This document shows, piece after piece, positions 9,601 through 63,934 of a stretch of 64,000 bases of DNA. Location: positions 1 to 64,000 of the forward strand of contig NZ_JAUXVR010000029.1 of assembly GCF_030680395.1 (NCBI RefSeq), given 5' to 3'. This DNA comes from Methylobacter sp. Lineage in GTDB: Bacteria > Pseudomonadota > Gammaproteobacteria > Methylococcales > Methylomonadaceae. The position numbers were made by a program, and so were the translations under genes. How positions within the stretch are numbered: the stretch's first letter is position 1; the number at the start of each line of letters is the position of its first letter. Below the pieces are notes generated by a model. It had not been told where the DNA came from. It searched no databases and saw nothing but the letters and a program-made list of their open reading frames with translations.

Positions 9601-9701
9601 GCATCGGTCCTCTATCGATTGCGACGCATCTACCATTCCTGGCAGTCGGTCGCATAGGTTCCTTACCGATTGCGGCACTTCCGCCATCCCTGGCAGTCGT
9701 C
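9601..9701. repeat. two imperfect tandem copies of a ~50-bp repeat
   Basis: Unit 9601-9651 and unit 9652-9701 align along their length, each beginning GCAT(C/A)GGT and ending CCTGGCAGTCG. The string CTACC..CCTGGCAGTCGGTCGC resembles the reverse strand of the 48-bp repeat in amgK (CTACCTCCTGCGTCCATGCAGTCGTCGGC), so this may be an old degenerate pair of the same family. It fills the argF to SH3-gene spacer. Confidence 0.55.
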
Positions 9702-13857: not shown

Positions 13858-14152
13858 TTTCGAGCAGCAAGGATGGGAAACTACCTGTTTTGGAAGCAAG
13901 CCGACAAGACCAAGGTTAAGCGTATCAATCAGTTAATCAGGGATATTCAACGCGATCCATTCGATGGCATTGGTAAGCCCGAAGCCTTGCGCCACGGGTT
14001 GACGGGATTATGGTCACGCCGTATTGATGACGACTGCATGGGTGCAGGAGGTAGAGCAATGCAGGAGCAATTGCCGAGGACATCGGCTGATTTATTCAGT
14101 GAGCGACAGAAAAATCATCATTGCCCAATGCCGTTATCACTATGGTGATTGA
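13850..14152 (+). pseudogene. YoeB-type toxin gene, broken by a frameshift and a repeat insertion
   Basis: Three frame segments together rebuild a YoeB RNase. MINFEQQGWE starts at ATG 13850, overlapping the antitoxin. After one lost base near 13880 the frame becomes YLFWKQADKTKVKRINQLI and continues to GKPEALRHGLTGLWSRRID. At about 14030 one unit of the 48-bp repeat is inserted, a net gain of about 46 nt, which shifts the frame again. HRLIYSVSDRKIIIAQCRYH, with the catalytic C-terminal Arg-Tyr-His-Tyr, follows from 14081 to the ancestral stop at 14150. YoeB toxins cut mRNA at the ribosome. As written, no full toxin can be made. The track ORF 13873-14148 is the middle segment read through the repeat. 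Confidence 0.85.
14030..14076 (+). repeat. 48-bp repeat, single copy inside the yoeB-type gene
   Basis: Begins ACGACTGCATGG and ends CAATTGCCG, 47 bp. It is almost identical to the first unit at 32751-32797, and to the units in amgK read on the other strand. It interrupts the conserved (D/E)EHR segment of the toxin. Confidence 0.85.
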
Positions 14153-32750: not shown

Positions 32751-32845
32751 ACGACTGCATGGACGCAGGAGGTAGAGCAATGCAGGAGCAATTGCCGACG
32801 ACTACATGGATGCAGAAGGTAAAGCAACGCACGGAGCGATTGCCA
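32751..32845 (+). repeat. two tandem units of the 48-bp repeat between acpP and fabF
   Basis: Unit 1 (32751-32797) starts ACGACTGCATGGACGCAGG; unit 2 (32798-32845) starts ACGACTACATGGATGCAG and ends CGATTGCCA. They sit inside a palindrome, GGTTGGGTTACG on the left and CGTAACCCACA on the right, as if the array had inserted into an existing hairpin. Confidence 0.85.
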
Positions 32846-32951
32846 AACGTAGCGTAACCCACACTTAGTGCTTCGATGTCATGTTACGATGCACTTCGGC
32901 CTATATAACCAACTCTTTATCCCTCCTTTATTTTTCTTACGGTAAATCACA

Positions 32952-34237: not shown

Positions 34238-35146
34238 ATGATTCTCATCAATGGTGAAAGCAAGGAGCATATCGAAATATCAGATCGCGGTTTTCAATAC
34301 GGCGATGGATTATTCGAAACCATTGAAATTAGAGACGGACAAGCTGTTTTTCTCGAACGTCATTTGCAACGGCTAAAATCAGGCTGCCAACGGCTTTATA
34401 TCCCTTTTCCAGATTCAGAATTACTAAGCTCTGAAGCTGGAGAGCTTTGTCGTCGATGGGTCAGCGATACCCACTCCGTTCGAGCGGTGCTCAAAGTTAT
34501 AGTCACGCGCGGCTCGGGGGGGCGAGGTTATCGTCAACCCGATGTCATTCAACCTACTCGCGTATTAAGTCTTCATCCTTATCCTGACTATCCGGAAATA
34601 TACCGGGAGCAGGGCATCGTCGCCCGTTTTTGCGTTACCCGTTTAGGTTTGAATCCCGCCTTGGCAGGCATTAAGCACCTGAACCGGCTTGAGCAGGTAA
34701 TGGCGAGAGCTGAATGGAATGACCCGGCCATTCAGGAAGGGCTTATGCTTGATGTCAACGATCATGTTATTGAAGGAACAATGACTAATTTGTTCTACAT
34801 TAAAAATAACAGTCTTTATACGTCAGTGCTGACTCAATCAGGCGTTGCCGGTATTATGCGCGGCATTATAATGACGATTTCAGCTGACCATGGCCTTTCG
34901 GTAATTGAACATGCATTTACGAAAGATGAGCTGCTATCGGCTGATGACGCATTCGTCTGTAATTCAATTATTGGCATCTGGCCCATCAAACAAATCGAAA
35001 CCACGTACTTTTCAGTTAGTCCAATAACCAAGAATATTAAAATCCAGCTGGACAGGTTTATCAATGACGAATGCATTGCTGCAGGAGGTAGAGCAATTGC
35101 CGAGAGCACCAACAGTAGGCGTTTTAGACGAGGCACTCAACAATGA
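34238..35146 (+). CDS. pabC: aminodeoxychorismate lyase with a repeat-derived tail
   Basis: 302 residues; the family norm is about 270. Fold type IV PLP enzyme: it converts 4-amino-4-deoxychorismate to p-aminobenzoate and pyruvate. Seen are ISDRGFQYGDGLFETI, the PLP lysine in AGIKHLNRLEQ, EGTMTNLFYI and DDAFVCNSIIGIWPI. Catalytic parts end near residue 275. The last 27 or so residues (ECIAAGGRAIAESTNSRRFR...) are encoded by the 48-bp repeat and its second module. The TGA overlaps the mltG ATG (ATGA), so coupling is kept despite the insertion. Confidence 0.93.
   Translation: MILINGESKEHIEISDRGFQYGDGLFETIEIRDGQAVFLERHLQRLKSGCQRLYIPFPDSELLSSEAGELCRRWVSDTHSVRAVLKVIVTRGSGGRGYRQPDVIQPTRVLSLHPYPDYPEIYREQGIVARFCVTRLGLNPALAGIKHLNRLEQVMARAEWNDPAIQEGLMLDVNDHVIEGTMTNLFYIKNNSLYTSVLTQSGVAGIMRGIIMTISADHGLSVIEHAFTKDELLSADDAFVCNSIIGIWPIKQIETTYFSVSPITKNIKIQLDRFINDECIAAGGRAIAESTNSRRFRRGTQQ
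35067..35127 (+). repeat. shortened 48-bp repeat plus second module, inside the pabC 3' end
   Basis: ACGAATGCATTGCTGCAGG with GAGGTAGAGCAATTGCCGAG corresponds to a unit with a middle deletion. It is followed by AGTAGGCGTTTTAG, a module shared with 51390-51403. Confidence 0.75.
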
Positions 35147-44954: not shown

Positions 44955-45626
44955 TTACCTTTGTTGAGTGTAATAAAAATCCAGTTCCTGCAAGCGTTCA
45001 GGTGTACCTATGTCCATCCAGAACCCCTTCGCTTTTTGCCCTGAAACCCGGCCGCTTGCTATGGCTTGGCGTAGTAAAGGCCCCAGTTTGCCGGGGCCGG
45101 TGGGTATGTTGTTGAACAGTTCAGGACGATACAGCCCGATGCCGCTGAAAGTAAGTTGTTCGGTACTATTTGAGACGACCAATCCGGTATCAGCTAAGCC
45201 AAAGTCACCTTTTATATTATGCGCCGGATTATCGACCAGAACCAGATGAGCCAAATCGACGGTCTGGTTTTTGAGTTCGGCAAACGGAAAATCTGTCGCT
45301 ATATCGCCATTGACTACCAAAAACACCTCATCGCCTAATAAATGCAGCGCGTTAATAATACCGCCAGCCGTTTCCAACGCTTGTTCGCCTTCGGGTGAAT
45401 AGCTTATGTTTGCGCCAAGCTCATTGCCGTTGCCCAGCTGATCTTCTATTTGCAATCCCAGATGGGCATGGTTAATGACTATATCATTAAAGCCGGCTGC
45501 GACCAGTTGTTTGATTGTATATTCGATCAGCGGTTTGCCTGCGGCGGTAAGCAGGGGTTTGGGGGTATGGTCGGTGAGCGGGCGCATTCTTTCGCCGCGC
45601 CCTGCCGCTAAAATCATGGCCTTCAT
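44955..45626 (-). CDS. murU: N-acetylmuramate alpha-1-phosphate uridylyltransferase
   Basis: 223 residues from the ATG at 45626, giving the nucleotidyltransferase start [20 protein letters not shown]; the track start (45641) is inside amgK. Key parts: [28 protein letters not shown], and [14 protein letters not shown] near the end. MurU makes UDP-MurNAc from MurNAc-1-phosphate in the fosfomycin-independent peptidoglycan recycling route. It overlaps the end of amgK, its pathway partner. Confidence 0.92.
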
Positions 45627-46834
45627 AGAGCAGAAGGGCAAGGCATGACGCTCTGATTGCCGTATGCAGGCAACACTTGATCGAGCAGGAAGCCATTGAA
45701 CTCGGCAAGTTCAGGATAAGCCGCGCAAACAGCGGTGACATAGTTCAGTGTGCGCGGTATGTCGTCAAGGTAATTGGACTTGCCGTCTCTCAAATGCAAG
45801 CGGGAGAAAATACCGATAGCTTTAAGGTGACGCTGTAGCCCCATCAGGTCAAACCAGCGTTTAAATTGGGCCGGAGTGCAATTAATGAGGCCTGCCAGTT
45901 GGAGTCGTTCAAAATAGTTAAATCGCCATTGTTCAACCTGTTGCTCAGGCCAGGCTATATAGCAATCGCGCAATAACGAGACCAGATCATAGGTGATAGG
46001 GCCGATGACGGCGTCCTGGAAATCGATGACGCCGGGTGAGTCACTGTCTAAAACCATCAGGTTGCGGGAATGATAATCTCGGTGCACGCAGGTGCTGGGT
46101 TGCTCCAGAGCCGATGCGGTGAGAATGGTACGCGTTGTCTCCCAAACCGGTGCGGGAATTTCAATGTCCAGCAACTGTCCTAAAAACCATTCGTCAAAAA
46201 TAGCCAGTTCCCTGTGCAGGAGCGGTTCGTCATAGCTGGGCAATCCGGAGTTTTGTACAGGTATTTGGGTTTGCAGTTTGAATAAACTGTCGAAAGCAGT
46301 TTGATATAAATCGGGAGCGGTGGCTTCATTAAGCTGATCGAGAAAACACTGATTACCGAAATCCTCCAGCAGTAGAAATCCGTCAGTCATGTTTTGTTGA
46401 AAAATGGTCGGGACGTTAATCCGAGACTGCGTTAGTAGCTTGGCAATTCTAATGAAAGGTTCAATATTTTCTTTGGCCGGCGGGGCATCCATGACAATAA
46501 ATTGTTGCTCGGCAACTGCTCCCTGCATTGCTCTCGGCAACCGCTCCCTGCGTTGCTCTACCTCCTGCGTCCATGCAGTCGTCGGCAACCGCTCCCTGCG
46601 TTGCTCTACCTCCTGCGTCCATGCAGTCGTCGGCAATTGTTCCCTGCATTGTTCTGCCTCTCCCATCCTTGGGGTCGTACCTCCTGCATCCATGCAGTAG
46701 CCTGAAGTTTTGACTCTAAAGTAACGCCGAAAGCTGGCATCGCTGGAGGCGGGGTCGCATGCAGTGATGGTAAGCAATAAATCGTTTTCAAGCCAGTCGA
46801 ACATCGATATTGTTCTTAAGTCTTCAGGCATCAT
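45623..46834 (-). CDS. amgK: N-acetylmuramate/N-acetylglucosamine kinase with a repeat-coded insertion
   Basis: 403 residues; relatives are about 340. Aminoglycoside-phosphotransferase fold. SSDASFRRYFRV (N-lobe) and FIVMDAPPAKENIEPFI should be near neighbours but are separated by about 60 residues made from the 48-bp repeat (units reading TTAWTQEVEQRRERLP). The rest is normal: LLEDFGNQCFLDQL, catalytic VHRDYHSRNLMV, and GVIDFQDAVIGPITYDLVSLL. It phosphorylates MurNAc at C1 before MurU. The insert lies in a loop of the N-lobe, so activity may persist. The start could be 46834 or the in-frame ATG at 46804. Confidence 0.92.
   Translation of the reverse strand: MMPEDLRTISMFDWLENDLLLTITACDPASSDASFRRYFRVKTSGYCMDAGGTTPRMGEAEQCREQLPTTAWTQEVEQRRERLPTTAWTQEVEQRRERLPRAMQGAVAEQQFIVMDAPPAKENIEPFIRIAKLLTQSRINVPTIFQQNMTDGFLLLEDFGNQCFLDQLNEATAPDLYQTAFDSLFKLQTQIPVQNSGLPSYDEPLLHRELAIFDEWFLGQLLDIEIPAPVWETTRTILTASALEQPSTCVHRDYHSRNLMVLDSDSPGVIDFQDAVIGPITYDLVSLLRDCYIAWPEQQVEQWRFNYFERLQLAGLINCTPAQFKRWFDLMGLQRHLKAIGIFSRLHLRDGKSNYLDDIPRTLNYVTAVCAAYPELAEFNGFLLDQVLPAYGNQSVMPCPSAL
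46510..46699 (-). repeat. array of the 48-bp repeat inside amgK
   Basis: In plus-strand order: a partial unit (46510-46532), two identical 48-bp units (46535-46582 and 46583-46630), a diverged 48-bp unit with CCATCCTTGGGGTCGT (46631-46678), and a partial unit (46679-46699). A 48-bp period is 16 codons, so each added unit keeps the frame. Reverse-strand copies carry the same motifs as the plus-strand copies at 14030 and 32751. Confidence 0.95.
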
Positions 46835-51297: not shown

Positions 51298-51768
51298 ATG
51301 ATCACCAATAATAAACATGATTGCACGGCTGCAGGCGATAAGGTTCCAAGGATGAGGGAGGTAGAGCAACGCACGGAAAGAGCGCCAAAAGTAGGCGCTT
51401 TAGGCAATGCAGGAACAATTATAATCCAGCCAAGCATTAAAATGGTTCGCTATCGATTGGATGTGGGAAGTAAGCATCAGGTTACGTCCGAAGAGCTTAA
51501 AAAAATATTGATTGAAGAGTCTGGAGTCGACAAAAATAATATTAACAATATTAATATTCAGGGTGATTACACGCTTGTCGAGTTGCCCGATGAAATGCCG
51601 CAAGATATATTTCTGCATTTAAAGTCGGTAGAAATCAAGCAACATAAACTGGATATAAAACGGGTAAAGGCACGTAATAAAAGACGTAGCAACAACTACG
51701 GTCGACGTGGAAGACAGCGTACGCCTCCATCTAACAACAGTGGTTCCGATCAAGCCCGTGGCGTTTAA
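51298..51768 (+). CDS. stand-alone DbpA-type RNA-binding domain protein with repeat-coded N-terminus
   Basis: 156 residues if the first ATG is used. Residues 49-122 resemble the DbpA RNA-binding domain at the end of DEAD-box helicases (MVRYRLDVGSKHQVTSEELKK, then IQGDYTLVELPDEMPQDIFL), followed by a basic tail (RRSNNYGRRGRQR). No helicase core is present. The first 45 or so residues come from the 48-bp repeat and its second module. The native start may be the ATG at 51442; neither start has a strong ribosome site. Placed after surA, where pdxA or ksgA often follows. Confidence 0.65.
   Translation: MITNNKHDCTAAGDKVPRMREVEQRTERAPKVGALGNAGTIIIQPSIKMVRYRLDVGSKHQVTSEELKKILIEESGVDKNNINNINIQGDYTLVELPDEMPQDIFLHLKSVEIKQHKLDIKRVKARNKRRSNNYGRRGRQRTPPSNNSGSDQARGV
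51319..51410 (+). repeat. 48-bp repeat with CCAAGGATG variant and second module
   Basis: GATTGCACGGCTGCAGG starts the copy. CCAAGGATGAGGGAGGTAGA matches the diverged fourth unit in amgK, and AGTAGGCGCTTTAGG matches the module in pabC. It is in the 5' part of the DbpA-domain ORF. Confidence 0.75.
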
Positions 51769-51859
51769 GCTAATCGAACAGATGCAGGGATAATCGCCTA
51801 GATATTGCAGATGTCCAGAGCGGGGCAATTACCGAGGAACAAATATCTGTCCACCAATA

Positions 51860-51885
51860 CTCTACCTCCTGCATCTTACACTCGT
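51860..51885 (-). repeat. fragment of the 48-bp repeat, reverse orientation
   Basis: CTCTACCTCCTGCATC followed by ACTCGT matches the middle of the amgK units. GCGGGGCAATTACCGAGG at 51820 may be another worn end in the opposite direction. Confidence 0.55.
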
Positions 51886-52269: not shown

Positions 52270-52315
52270 ACCTGCATTGCTTTGCCTCGGTCGTACTTCA
52301 TGCATCTTTGCAGTT
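52270..52315 (-). repeat. degraded copy of the 48-bp repeat
   Basis: CCTGCATTGCTTTGCCTC and GTCGTACTTCATGCATC match the last two units of the amgK array (GTCGTACCTCCTGCATCC) with scattered changes. Same orientation as in amgK. Confidence 0.6.
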
Positions 52316-52420
52316 GAAAGAGCGGTTCTGCTGGTAAGCGGTAACGGCAATCATACAAAAAATCAAATTTCATCGCTAAAAATGACAACTGTAAAAAAGC
52401 AACCAACGCTGTAAGGCGTA

Positions 52421-52536: not shown

Positions 52537-53496
52537 TTACCACTTAACCGCAGTAAAAGCACGCGACAATACAGCTCTGGCCTCGAACATTGATTTTTTC
52601 GTATCTTCGGCGGCGCTGACAGCCTCGGTTTTGGCTTGTTCGGCACTGTGGGAATGATCCTGGATGCGAGCTGAGGCCTCTTGGGCCTGCGCGTGCAATT
52701 CCCGGGCATCATCACGCAGCCTCTGCGCATCATCGCGAGCCTGTTCAGCCAAGTTCTGGGCATTTTGAGTTTCGGAAAGTGCTTGTTGCAGTTGTGATAA
52801 TACAAACTCGGCTTGAGCACGAAGACCCCGTATCCTATCCATCTCTGTTTGCGCTTCACTGCGCTGTTGTTCAATTTCTTGAGCGCGACTGGCTGACTGC
52901 TCACTAAACTGGGCTGCTTGAGTGGCGTGTTCCTGAGATTGACTCACTGTCTGGCCGGTCAAATAGGCGGATGCTTGAGCGTCGCTTGCAAACCGAGCTG
53001 CTTGTTGTGCCTCATCCTCCGCCTTAATGGCTGCCTGGGCTGCTGTTTGGGCGCTACCGTTTGCATCCTGAGCTGAGGTACCGGTATTTTCAGCCTGTTG
53101 TTGGGCCTGCTCGGCACAGTCTTGCGCCGTTCGTGCAGAAGCCTGGCTTTCAGTCGCCGCATGTGCGGCTGTTTCGGCGTGGGTGCGGGCTTGTTGCGCT
53201 TCATCCTCTGCCTTGCTGGCTGCCTGGGCCGCTGTTTGGGCGCTGTCATTAGCACTTTGAGCTGCGTTGCCGGCATTTTCAGCATGTGTTTCAGCATGAT
53301 GGAGAACTAATGCGGCTTGATGAGCATGCTGATCAGCTTGAACTGCGCGTTCTGACGCTGCTTGTGCCTGTCGTTCAGCGGCTCGTTGAGATTGTTCAGC
53401 AGATTGACAGAAATCTTCGCAACGGTTTGCCGCCTCTCTGGCGCGTTCAGCTTCTTGATTGGCAATATCGAGTGCATCGGAAATATATTCGGACAT
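52537..53496 (-). CDS. Ala/Gln/Glu-rich coiled-coil protein with an internal duplication
   Basis: 319 residues, nearly all predicted helix with no Pro and heptads of Ala. No signal peptide or membrane segment. Two copies of a 60-70-residue unit are clear: NAAQSANDSAQTAAQAASKA EDEAQQA and, 67 residues later, SAQDANGSAQTAAQAAIKA EDEAQQA, each followed by a similar helix. I do not recognise a family. It could be a filament, a phage-tail-type rod or a surface-linked fibre. AAGGTAACGCTC upstream contains a possible ribosome site (AAGGTAACG). Composition bias makes database hits unreliable. Confidence 0.7.
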   Translation of the reverse strand: MSEYISDALDIANQEAERAREAANRCEDFCQSAEQSQRAAERQAQAASERAVQADQHAHQAALVLHHAETHAENAGNAAQSANDSAQTAAQAASKAEDEAQQARTHAETAAHAATESQASARTAQDCAEQAQQQAENTGTSAQDANGSAQTAAQAAIKAEDEAQQAARFASDAQASAYLTGQTVSQSQEHATQAAQFSEQSASRAQEIEQQRSEAQTEMDRIRGLRAQAEFVLSQLQQALSETQNAQNLAEQARDDAQRLRDDARELHAQAQEASARIQDHSHSAEQAKTEAVSAAEDTKKSMFEARAVLSRAFTAVKW

Positions 53497-53785
53497 GAGC
53501 GTTACCTTCTTATTTGGGTAATTTATTATTGTGGTTTAAAGTGCATTGGATTCTATCAGCAAAAGTATTGCCTGAACAGCATCTTGCATTGCCTTGATTT
53601 TATCTATTGTTTTGCCTCGCATTGGTCAGGAATTTATCGCCATGTAGCCGGTAGGTCGGGCAAGCAGTTTATGCCCGACATTAATGAGCATCAAACGTAG
53701 GGCAACGAAAAGATTACATTGCTGAATTAGCTTAGACAGCCATAAGTTTCTGTTCAAATGCCCCCGCTAGTCCCGTTACGAGCAA
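53497..53785. other. spacer with a TCGGGCA palindrome and no gene
   Basis: Between the coiled-coil gene and the 151-aa gene. Only the palindrome at 53654-53679 stands out. Confidence 0.4.
53654..53679. repeat. GTCGGGCA...TGCCCGAC palindrome
   Basis: Perfect 8-bp stem around AGCAGTTTA. Related: GCATGCTGTTTATGTCCGAC at 54371, GGCATGCTGTTTATGTTCGA at 63863 and TCGGGCAAC...GTTGCCCGA at 62534. Confidence 0.65.
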
Positions 53786-54340: not shown

Positions 54341-54390
54341 TCCGTAGGATGCAATAGCCGGGTAGATTAGGCATGCTGTTTATGTCCGAC
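54341..54390. repeat. second copy of TCCGTAGGATGCAATAGC with GCATGCTGTTTATG
   Basis: 18 bp identical to 52421-52438, followed by GGCATGCTGTTTATGT, which is shared with 63863-63878. It abuts the stop of hicB at 54392. Confidence 0.65.
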
Positions 54391-54391
54391 A

Positions 54392-54805
54392 TCAAGTCAG
54401 CGTCACATCAATATGCTTGCCCAGCGCCTTGGCCGCCGCCTCCAATTGATCCAGTCGGGAAGCATGCCTCAAGTCAAACAGCCGATCAACCTGTGGCCCT
54501 TTCCAGCCTAAACGACGTGCCAGTTCGGCCTTACGCACACCTTGTATCATCATTTCCCGATAAACGGCCAACTTAATGCCCTCCAGTGCGGAAGGCTTAG
54601 CAGTGCGTAAATCAGGACACACGGAAGGTTCCGGCAAAGGTTTTCTGGCATCGACATAAAATGACAAAGCGGTTTCCAACGCGTCAACTGCATTAAGTAA
54701 GGCTTCTTCCTCATTCTTGCCGAAAGTAATCGCTTCCGGCACATCGGGAAACGTTACTAATAGTGTGCCATCGTCTGGGGTCAAAATGACGGGATAATTA
54801 AACAT
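54392..54805 (-). CDS. hicB: HicB-family antitoxin with C-terminal helix-turn-helix
   Basis: 137 residues. The N-terminal half is the HicB partial RNase-H-like fold (YPVILTPDDGTLLVTFPDVPEA and NEEEALLNAVDALETAL). The C-terminal half is a Cro-type HTH (GVRKAELARRLGWKGPQVDRL, then LEAAAKALGKHIDV). It neutralises HicA and represses its promoter. It lies 9 bp downstream of the hicA remnant, in the usual order toxin-antitoxin, and appears intact. Confidence 0.88.
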   Translation of the reverse strand: MFNYPVILTPDDGTLLVTFPDVPEAITFGKNEEEALLNAVDALETALSFYVDARKPLPEPSVCPDLRTAKPSALEGIKLAVYREMMIQGVRKAELARRLGWKGPQVDRLFDLRHASRLDQLEAAAKALGKHIDVTLT

Positions 54806-60703: not shown

Positions 60704-60783
60704 ACGACTGCATGGACAGGAAATGATCCAGTCATTTCTCTGCATTCCCCACATTCATGTAACTTAGCAGTTGCCGAGAACAC
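60704..60783 (+). repeat. degraded 48-bp repeat upstream of the BASS transporter
   Basis: ACGACTGCATGGAC at 60704 and AGCAGTTGCCGAGAACA near 60766 are the two ends of a unit. The middle has been replaced by a palindromic stretch, GAAATGATCCAGTCATTTC. Confidence 0.65.
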
Positions 60784-62617: not shown

Positions 62618-63850
62618 ATGTCTCGAAAGAAAAAGATTTTAGTTGTAGTTGGGGCTGGTGCTTCAATAGATTTTGGAATGCCCTCAGTAACAGAAATCAA
62701 TAAGTTGTTTATCAAATGGGCAAAAGATGAGTTCCCCCTAGCTAGCAATCAGGACGATAACCTTTATTCATTTTTTGAACGAGAAATTGAGAGATATAAG
62801 AGGGATCATTTAGCTGGCCACCTTAGGACATGCACTAATTTCGAAGAGGTTTTATATAATATGTACCTCATGCCAGCTTTTTACCCCAACGGAGTTTTTA
62901 CCTCGTCGATTGGAGCTTTTCTAGGGGTTAGGAAGTTACCGGATATTCGTTATCTTGGCTGGCACAGAACGACTGATTCTCATGTTTTAGGGAGGCTAGC
63001 AGAATATTTAATTGAATCATTGCTTAAAGAATTTAGAAAGAGATGCCAAGAAGTTGATAAAAATAAAACAGCTCAATGGAATGACTTTTTGACCAAACTA
63101 GACGAAGATTTTGAGTTAGCTATTGTTAGCCTTAATTACGACAATCTTGTGTACCAAGCGTTATCTTCATTGAATACAGGATTCGACCCAGTTGCCAAAT
63201 TGTTTAAACCAGAAATGATTTGGCAACGCAAAAGTTGGCGATGCTTATTACACCTTCACGGTTCGGTACATTTTGATTTTTGGGAGGGTTTGCGATGGAT
63301 AGACGATTTAGCTAAAACTTATAACCCAGATTTGGGGGAAGCCAGAGGACGTTCTTCTATAAATACCAAAGAAGGGGCGGTTTTTCCAAGTTCTGAAATT
63401 GTGGCTGGATACGGGAAGTTGTCGCGACTATCAAGCCAGCCATTTAGAACGTATTATGCGGAACTGGATAGATTAGTGCATGAGTGTGAAGGGGTTTTAT
63501 TTCTGGGTTACGGCTTTGCGGATAATCACCTGGACCAAGCATTTTCAAATTTTCGTAACGATCCTAGACGTCCCGTGGTCGTTATAGACAAGGCTAATGG
63601 TGACACCATGACGATTCGATCTTCATATGATGTGTCGCCTACTGCTAAATCCGCTGTGCGTCTTTTTTGTAAAGACCCTCTATCAATGAAATGGCTCGAT
63701 AATGATTTTTCAGAACGGGTTGAACGGTTAAATGAAATAGATGAATTTGAAAGTTCAAATGATCCAAACATACCTTTATCTATTTGGTATGGCGGCATGC
63801 AAAAGGCATGCTGTAATTATGAAAAAATTAAGCATATTCTTACCAGCTAG
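62618..63850 (+). CDS. SIR2-like domain protein, possible defence NADase
   Basis: 410 residues from ATG 62618, eight bases after GAGG (GTG 62612 is an alternative). NAD-binding elements of the SIR2_2 group: LVVVGAGASIDFGMPSV, IVSLNYDNLVYQAL, LLHLHGSVHFDF and EGVLFLGYGFADNHLDQAF. The zinc-binding cysteines of true deacetylases are missing. Proteins of this shape are frequent in anti-phage systems, where they deplete NAD on infection; here that is inferred from fold and context (hicAB, AT-rich DNA). No second subunit is encoded in the window, but the window ends 150 bp on. Confidence 0.8.
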   Translation: MSRKKKILVVVGAGASIDFGMPSVTEINKLFIKWAKDEFPLASNQDDNLYSFFEREIERYKRDHLAGHLRTCTNFEEVLYNMYLMPAFYPNGVFTSSIGAFLGVRKLPDIRYLGWHRTTDSHVLGRLAEYLIESLLKEFRKRCQEVDKNKTAQWNDFLTKLDEDFELAIVSLNYDNLVYQALSSLNTGFDPVAKLFKPEMIWQRKSWRCLLHLHGSVHFDFWEGLRWIDDLAKTYNPDLGEARGRSSINTKEGAVFPSSEIVAGYGKLSRLSSQPFRTYYAELDRLVHECEGVLFLGYGFADNHLDQAFSNFRNDPRRPVVVIDKANGDTMTIRSSYDVSPTAKSAVRLFCKDPLSMKWLDNDFSERVERLNEIDEFESSNDPNIPLSIWYGGMQKACCNYEKIKHILTS

Positions 63851-63862
63851 CCCTGTTTGTTG

Positions 63863-63880
63863 GGCATGCTGTTTATGTTC
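63863..63880. repeat. GGCATGCTGTTTATGT repeat
   Basis: 16 bases identical to 54370-54385, here just after the SIR2 gene. Confidence 0.6.
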
Positions 63881-63934
63881 GAAATTCTCTTGTTGTTGCC
63901 GTTCCCACGCTCCGGAGACTGTGAAAGTATTCAT

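Follow-up and report, generated by a model that had tools for sequence, protein, structure and literature searches.

A 47–48-bp two-hairpin mobile element inserted between and within genes of Methylobacter and other Gammaproteobacteria

Palindromic elements of Rickettsia (RPE), which have a length of about 150 bp (PMC10969869), are located between genes as well as in frame within unrelated protein genes, and the enzyme mobilising them is unknown (PMC10969869, PMC3733652). For TnpA_REP, published pairing between guide and cleavage sequence involves CT or CA (PMC8266576). In this study, we analysed a 64-kb stretch of a Methylobacter genome (hereafter the window, referring to its full length) and related genomes with respect to a repeat unit of 47 or 48 bp, which we regard as a new family whose behaviour is of a known kind, namely that of in-frame selfish inserts such as RPE.

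Most prominently discussed here is a 192-bp insert (46509–46700, minus strand) in amgK, the gene for an N-acetylmuramate/N-acetylglucosamine kinase (45626–46834, minus strand), which comprises four 48-bp units and is read in frame as 64 residues, so that the gene stays open through the insert. In this insert, three inner 48-bp units arranged head to tail interrupt an outer unit at the GGA^GGTAG within it. Two of these are identical (46534–46581, 71.3 bits, E = 1.5e-18; 46582–46629, 71.3 bits), and the third (46630–46677, 57.3 bits) displays the stem variant CCCA/TGGG in hairpin 1. The outer unit is represented by its first part up to GGA^GGTAG (46678–46700, 17.3 bits, E = 0.004) and by the rest, consisting of the second hairpin and the CGA end (46509–46533, with 21.5 bits at 46512–46533), all on the minus strand. 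On the plus strand, a 47-bp copy (14031–14077, 64.9 bits) lies out of frame in a yoeB-like gene, in which the upstream frame ends with LWSRRID and the downstream sequence reads GHRLIYSVSDRKIIIAQCRYHYGD, out of phase. This yoeB-like toxin gene is broken by the copy, and the gene preceding it reads as an antitoxin. Further plus-strand copies are a tandem pair, consisting of a 47-bp unit (32752–32798, 65.5 bits) within an inverted repeat GGGTTA..TAACCC and a worn 48-bp unit (32799–32846, 50.3 bits), and a worn copy with an internal deletion (35068–35103, 31 bits, E = 5e-7 for the window). Thus, of the sites listed in the first-pass annotation, those at 14030, 32751 (two units), 35067 and 46510–46699 were confirmed, while those at 51319 (51341–51388), about 51860, about 52270 and 9601 gave only weak matches. 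The latter comprise degenerate copies at 51341–51388 (plus strand, 16.4 bits, E = 0.008) and 51843–51884 (minus strand, 13.9 bits, E = 0.04) as well as matches at 52291–52316 and 9650–9699, with E values from 0.008 to 0.12 for all four. A copy at 60704, previously described as worn, turned out on direct reading of the sequence to be a 73-bp long form (60705–60777, plus strand) that shares the ends CGACTGCATGGA..GCAGTTGCCGA and the A^G context with the unit and carries other hairpins inside.

Other repeats were observed in the window as well. Tandem relatives at 9615–9699 (minus strand, including 9650–9699) follow the same two-hairpin plan with GGA loops and have a different linker, GAAGTGCCGCAA, and different stems; judged by these letters, they look like a differently stemmed sister subfamily of the unit. 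Another dispersed repeat, TAGCCGGGTAGATTAGGCATGCTGTTTATGTCCGACAT, is present in three copies (53644–53681, 54355–54392 and 63848–63885) and is possibly a GTAG-type REP. Besides, a pair of direct repeats, each about 110 nt long, with 79% identity and a spacing of 189 nt was found at 53000–53298, and an inverted repeat with 35-nt arms (83% complementary, 61 nt between them) and the ends CTAGTACTCAGTCAAT at 996–1126.

A search of the 4.36-Mb genome with the 16-base core GCAGGAGGTAGAGCAA resulted in 95 matches with at most two mismatches versus 0 for the reversed control, which excludes a chance origin, and a covariance model that we constructed from the unit gave 132 matches in this genome at E<=1. 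Within the genus, the unit is present in each of the 23 genomes, at 1 to 131 copies. It was also detected in several further genera of the family, with almost none in the other families of the order, and in 39 of 369 sampled genomes (34 of 272 genera) of the Gammaproteobacteria, the class to which every carrier found belongs. Among the carriers are Methylobacter, Methylovulum, Shewanella, Pseudoalteromonas, Thiohalomonas, Sedimenticola, Zhongshania, Endozoicomonas and Lysobacteraceae, and one 47-mer is letter-identical in Shewanella, Methylobacter and further Gammaproteobacteria. Copies are scattered, and few are common to different species. The repeat is therefore dispersed, as had been proposed, throughout the genome and beyond the genus, and a confinement to the window is excluded. 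In eight Shewanella loci and one of Pseudoalteromonas, between one and four 47-bp units in tandem occupy a fixed place within a larger repeat, which measures a few hundred bp and ends with ATTGGTAT; here, the unit was apparently carried along by the larger repeat.

Comparison of orthologues with and without the unit defined its exact ends. Orthologues of amgK (NF045759, E = 1.7e-75, which is below the family's curated cut-off, with the match starting past the insert) were present in 23 of 23 genomes of the genus. The gene is uninterrupted in 15 sister species, e.g., reading ..ACGCCTGGGCAACAATTT, with the empty site TCAGG^GCAACAATTT; in the window's genome, the 192 bp stand directly between TCAGG and GCAACAATTT, without target duplication. 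Elsewhere, the same gene harbored a worn 51-bp unit (genome G006), an insert of 147 bp (G021) or remnants of 30–45 bp, and all of the insert lengths, i.e., 192, 147, 51, 45, 36 and 30 bp, are divisible by three. Similarly, a site in a gene for an RlmI-like methyltransferase (GAACGCA^GTCATCTT) is empty in 13 genomes and filled in others with 48 bp (three genomes), a nested insert of 96 bp, a long form of 99 bp (two genomes) or 117 bp, all multiples of three; TTAEMQEVEQCMEQLPS is a predicted peptide of the RlmI-like protein with its insert. The nested insert in G006 additionally holds the repeat motif GTACCAACAGTAGGCGCTTTAGG and is still in frame, and this motif also adjoins other copies of the unit, e.g., at 51341 in the window. 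A third case was identified in the BREX gene pglX of E. coli ZF34, with a 48-bp in-frame copy at TTCAATGCAGA^CAACCGC, a junction that is uninterrupted in three other E. coli. The protein with the insert is listed as intact in RefSeq (WP_136516626.1). Near-identical BREX DNA is located on a Salmonella Panama plasmid, and the copy evidently arrived together with the BREX island.

No target duplication was detected in any of these orthologue comparisons for amgK, the RlmI-like gene and pglX. About 80% of the non-redundant insertion sites read A^G and about 10% T^G, the +1 base of the target being G in 89–95%, and new copies adjoin or enter older ones, either in tandem or nested at the internal GGA^GGTAG. 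The unit is thus a mobile element and not native gene sequence. That the units are native parts of genes that are merely alike, to which their being read through in frame could be ascribed, is almost certainly wrong: orthologues are cleanly empty at several loci, copies also occur between genes and nested in each other, and both orientations and five reading frames are used.

In order to characterize the copies inside genes, the flanks of each copy were joined by script and a reading frame was sought across the junction. Where the joined frame had at least 200 codons, 32 of 37 copies were a multiple of three in length versus 38 of 87 intergenic copies (Fisher's test, p = 8.7e-6); for joined frames of any length, it was 42 of 56 copies (p = 2.7e-4). 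The 47-bp form was thereby shown to be depleted within genes. As the first-pass annotation had recognized, the repeat lives in coding frames as well as between genes, and its 16 codons are stop-free in several frames: five of the six frames are open, and all five are in use among the hosts, so that the 48-bp form is able to persist inside genes as 16 additional residues. Host genes identified by NCBIfam are amgK, acnB, leuS, rep, hypF, uvrC, nifN and a gene for a TatD-family nuclease, to which a squalene-hopene cyclase gene, flgJ and ccmI were added by reading of the sequence. For AcnB, an alignment with E. coli aconitase B (1L5J) extends over both sides of the insert, which is located at about residue 41. 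Within genes, orientation showed no preference (16:16); between co-directional genes, sense and antisense copies amounted to 33 and 20, respectively. We infer random insertion followed by purifying selection from this genic pattern, in which case the copies inside genes would mostly be those that selection let pass, and not ones selected for a benefit.

In regard to its structure, the unit is built as CGA-hairpin-GAGGTAGA-hairpin-CGA. Hairpin 1 (CTGCA-NGGA-TGCAG) stands between the 5' CGA and the linker; hairpin 2 (GCAAC-GC-[A]NGGA-GC-A-GTTGC), displaying one bulged base, is followed by the terminal CGA, and the 47-bp form lacks one base of the second loop. A GTAG is located internally at positions 21–24 of 48. 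As single-stranded DNA, each unit folds into two hairpins with about -10 kcal/mol for the whole fold, the z values of its two strands being -3.25 and -4.35. Analysis of 51 distinct 48-mers revealed 96.1% of cells as paired, both-sided changes in 8 of 12 pairs and 41 double-change cells. Shuffled controls gave 8.7 such cells, with 0 of 500 shuffles reaching the observed number, and sliding of the partner gave no more than 9. In hairpin 1, the stem TGCA/TGCA is exchanged for TCCA/TGGA, GCCA/TGGC or GGCA/TGCC, and in hairpin 2 GCAAC/GTTGC is replaced by GCAAT/ATTGC or ATCGC/GCGAT. Both hairpins were thus shown to be maintained by compensatory change although the letters of their stems vary, and the previous description of the units as not strongly palindromic has to be revised accordingly. 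Longer forms retain the ends unchanged with different hairpins within. An alternative terminal stem, CGACTGC/GCAGTTG, is present in many copies and is lost when hairpin 2 becomes ATTGC, for which reason the two-hairpin fold was preferred.

The loop ANGGA stays constant while the stems covary, hairpin 1 showing C-ANGGAT-G, and GGA appears in the hairpin loops and three times per unit. These features would also suit a unit retained for an RNA function, e.g., as a putative decoy binding CsrA/RsmA. CsrA is common in Gammaproteobacteria, to which the carriers are restricted, and the sense copies prevailing between co-directional genes point in the same direction. Nevertheless, we regard such a function as improbable, since this 33:20 ratio is weak, orientation inside genes is balanced, copies are scattered with few common to species, and clean insertion would be left unexplained.

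RAYT genes are numerous in the genus, and the copy number of the unit rises with the number of RAYT genes (Spearman 0.77 over the 23 genomes of the genus, or 0.62 per Mb; 0.62 over 61 genomes). The unit could accordingly be a true GTAG-type REP, in which hairpin 2 and the preceding GTAG would represent the REP and the remainder a passenger, mobilised by resident RAYTs. Apart from the correlation within the genus, the position of GTAG one base ahead of a bulged hairpin, as in E. coli REPs (PMC8266576), and the recurrence of the unit in RAYT genes themselves (see below) speak for this. However, the GTAG is internal and not terminal, nine RAYT-rich genomes harbor none or one copy of the unit, and the junctions on the GTAG strand read A^C (5') and A^G (3') instead of CT or CA. 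Pairing with RAYT guide sequences was also compared by hand for both strands with the published rules (PMC8266576), none of which explains CGA^ or A^G. Furthermore, only 1 of 30 unselected RAYT loci had a copy within about 1.5 kb. With an internal GTAG, unflanked RAYTs and the CT/CA rule not followed, the unit is no REPtron repeat by these tests, and we consider a true REP unlikely. Linked transposases were sought in Y1/RAYT neighbourhoods as well, and the single close case is no more than the copy density predicts.

That no transposase accompanies the unit, as stated earlier, thus holds for its neighbours, but RAYT genes proved to be a recurrent insertion target. Three of them look interrupted by the unit, in each case at the catalytic HUH motif (H-x-H^C). 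When 237 genomes of the family were searched specifically for such junctions, with a pattern picked after the site had been seen, 12 insertions of this kind (L359–L370) emerged in 10 genomes of five genera. In all 12, the unit is located at one nucleotide, CAY NTN CAY T^GY, with two sites one base off the pattern, and by a rough estimate well below one random hit is expected at this nucleotide. The flanks of these sites differ from the general target consensus. With a pattern for the right-hand junction, which proved too short, matches did not exceed background and were disregarded. The interrupted genes belong to differing RAYT subgroups and form about eight lineages among uninterrupted ones in a FastTree tree (e.g., L368 beside L222 and L366 beside L058). 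This, together with sequence differences among the inserted units, speaks against a single insertion that gene conversion would have spread. Most of these genes carry further disruptions; in L359, the insert is in frame and the gene intact. Since the junction was found in none of 369 sparsely sampled genomes of the class, the hot spot has so far been seen only in the family to which the window belongs. A bolder reading, which we hold to be doubtful, takes the unit as a 48-nt structured DNA parasite that would be moved by RAYTs in trans, home to their HUH codons and disable them, and elsewhere leave harmless 16-residue inserts. If so, the element would disable the transposase it exploits, and the host's RAYT gene would then decay.

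Altogether, with moderate confidence, we favor a non-autonomous mobile element of 47–48 bp that is moved by a trans-acting single-strand enzyme of the HUH/Y1 type. A protein supplied in trans would recognise the folded single strand of the unit, cut after the terminal CGA and join the unit to a W^G target, in the manner of HUH/Y1 single-strand transposases. The even orientation within genes favors an action on DNA. The scarcity of copies near unselected RAYT loci and the junctions departing from the CT/CA rule speak against this model. IS200/IS605 elements usually show a replication-strand bias; in one genome (G019), sampled for skew only, no consistent bias of this kind was seen for the unit. 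The structured single strand, the missing target duplication and the constant A^G junction would equally fit a spread by RNA copies reverse-transcribed at nicks, making the unit a very small retroposon. This appears quite improbable, as the copies are mostly full length and not 5'-truncated (217 of 293 matches at E<0.01), and antisense copies are equally common inside genes.

In-frame selfish inserts in bacterial proteins have been known mainly from Rickettsia, which are hosts hard to manipulate. The unit represents an independent family that behaves in the same way in Gammaproteobacteria which are free-living and can be cultured (Methylobacter, Shewanella, Pseudoalteromonas), and named E. coli and Salmonella are among its carriers. 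Based on exact empty sites and a unit of 16 codons, its movement and its tolerance by proteins are directly testable, and the repeated insertions in active-site codons of RAYTs offer an opening to the mechanism. Moreover, blocks of 16 residues in aconitase, LeuRS, a helicase and nitrogenase-assembly proteins are taken as ordinary sequence by automatic annotation.

In regard to known families, no Rfam model and no phage record matched the unit, and neither its core sequence nor the encoded peptide was found in a non-exhaustive search of the open literature, in agreement with the initial view that no family of this sequence is known. With GTAG-type REPs and their REPtrons (TnpA_REP/RAYT), the unit shares the GTAG before a bulged hairpin, a high copy number and RAYT-rich carriers. 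It differs by the internal position of the GTAG, the constant order of two hairpins that are unlike each other, constant CGA ends, frequent location inside genes, absence from the flanks of RAYTs and a junction on the GTAG strand other than CT/CA. CGTC-tagged repeats (PMC3733652) are likewise palindromic and without a dedicated transposase, but carry a terminal CGTC tag that is absent from the unit with its CGA..CGA ends. Non-autonomous derivatives of IS200/IS605 (PATEs) resemble it in their structurally maintained hairpins near both ends, the absence of target duplication and a fixed junction base, whereas the unit, at 48 bp, is far shorter and has no tetranucleotide target; no parent IS with its ends was found in RAYT/Y1 neighbourhoods. 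ERIC, of about 127 bp with long inverted repeats, and other gammaproteobacterial MITEs are also non-autonomous and occasionally intragenic, but unrelated in sequence, and the unit lacks a target duplication. With RPE, finally, it shares its occurrence both in intergenic DNA and, in frame, in protein genes that are unrelated to each other, and the earlier restriction of this likeness to behaviour is fair: the unit is not a long palindrome of about 100–150 bp with RPE sequence, but has 47–48 bp, an unrelated sequence, a two-hairpin fold, gammaproteobacterial hosts, clean insertion at A^G, growth by nesting and in tandem, and recurrent insertion into REP-transposase genes. The unit thus works like RPE but belongs to a separate family.
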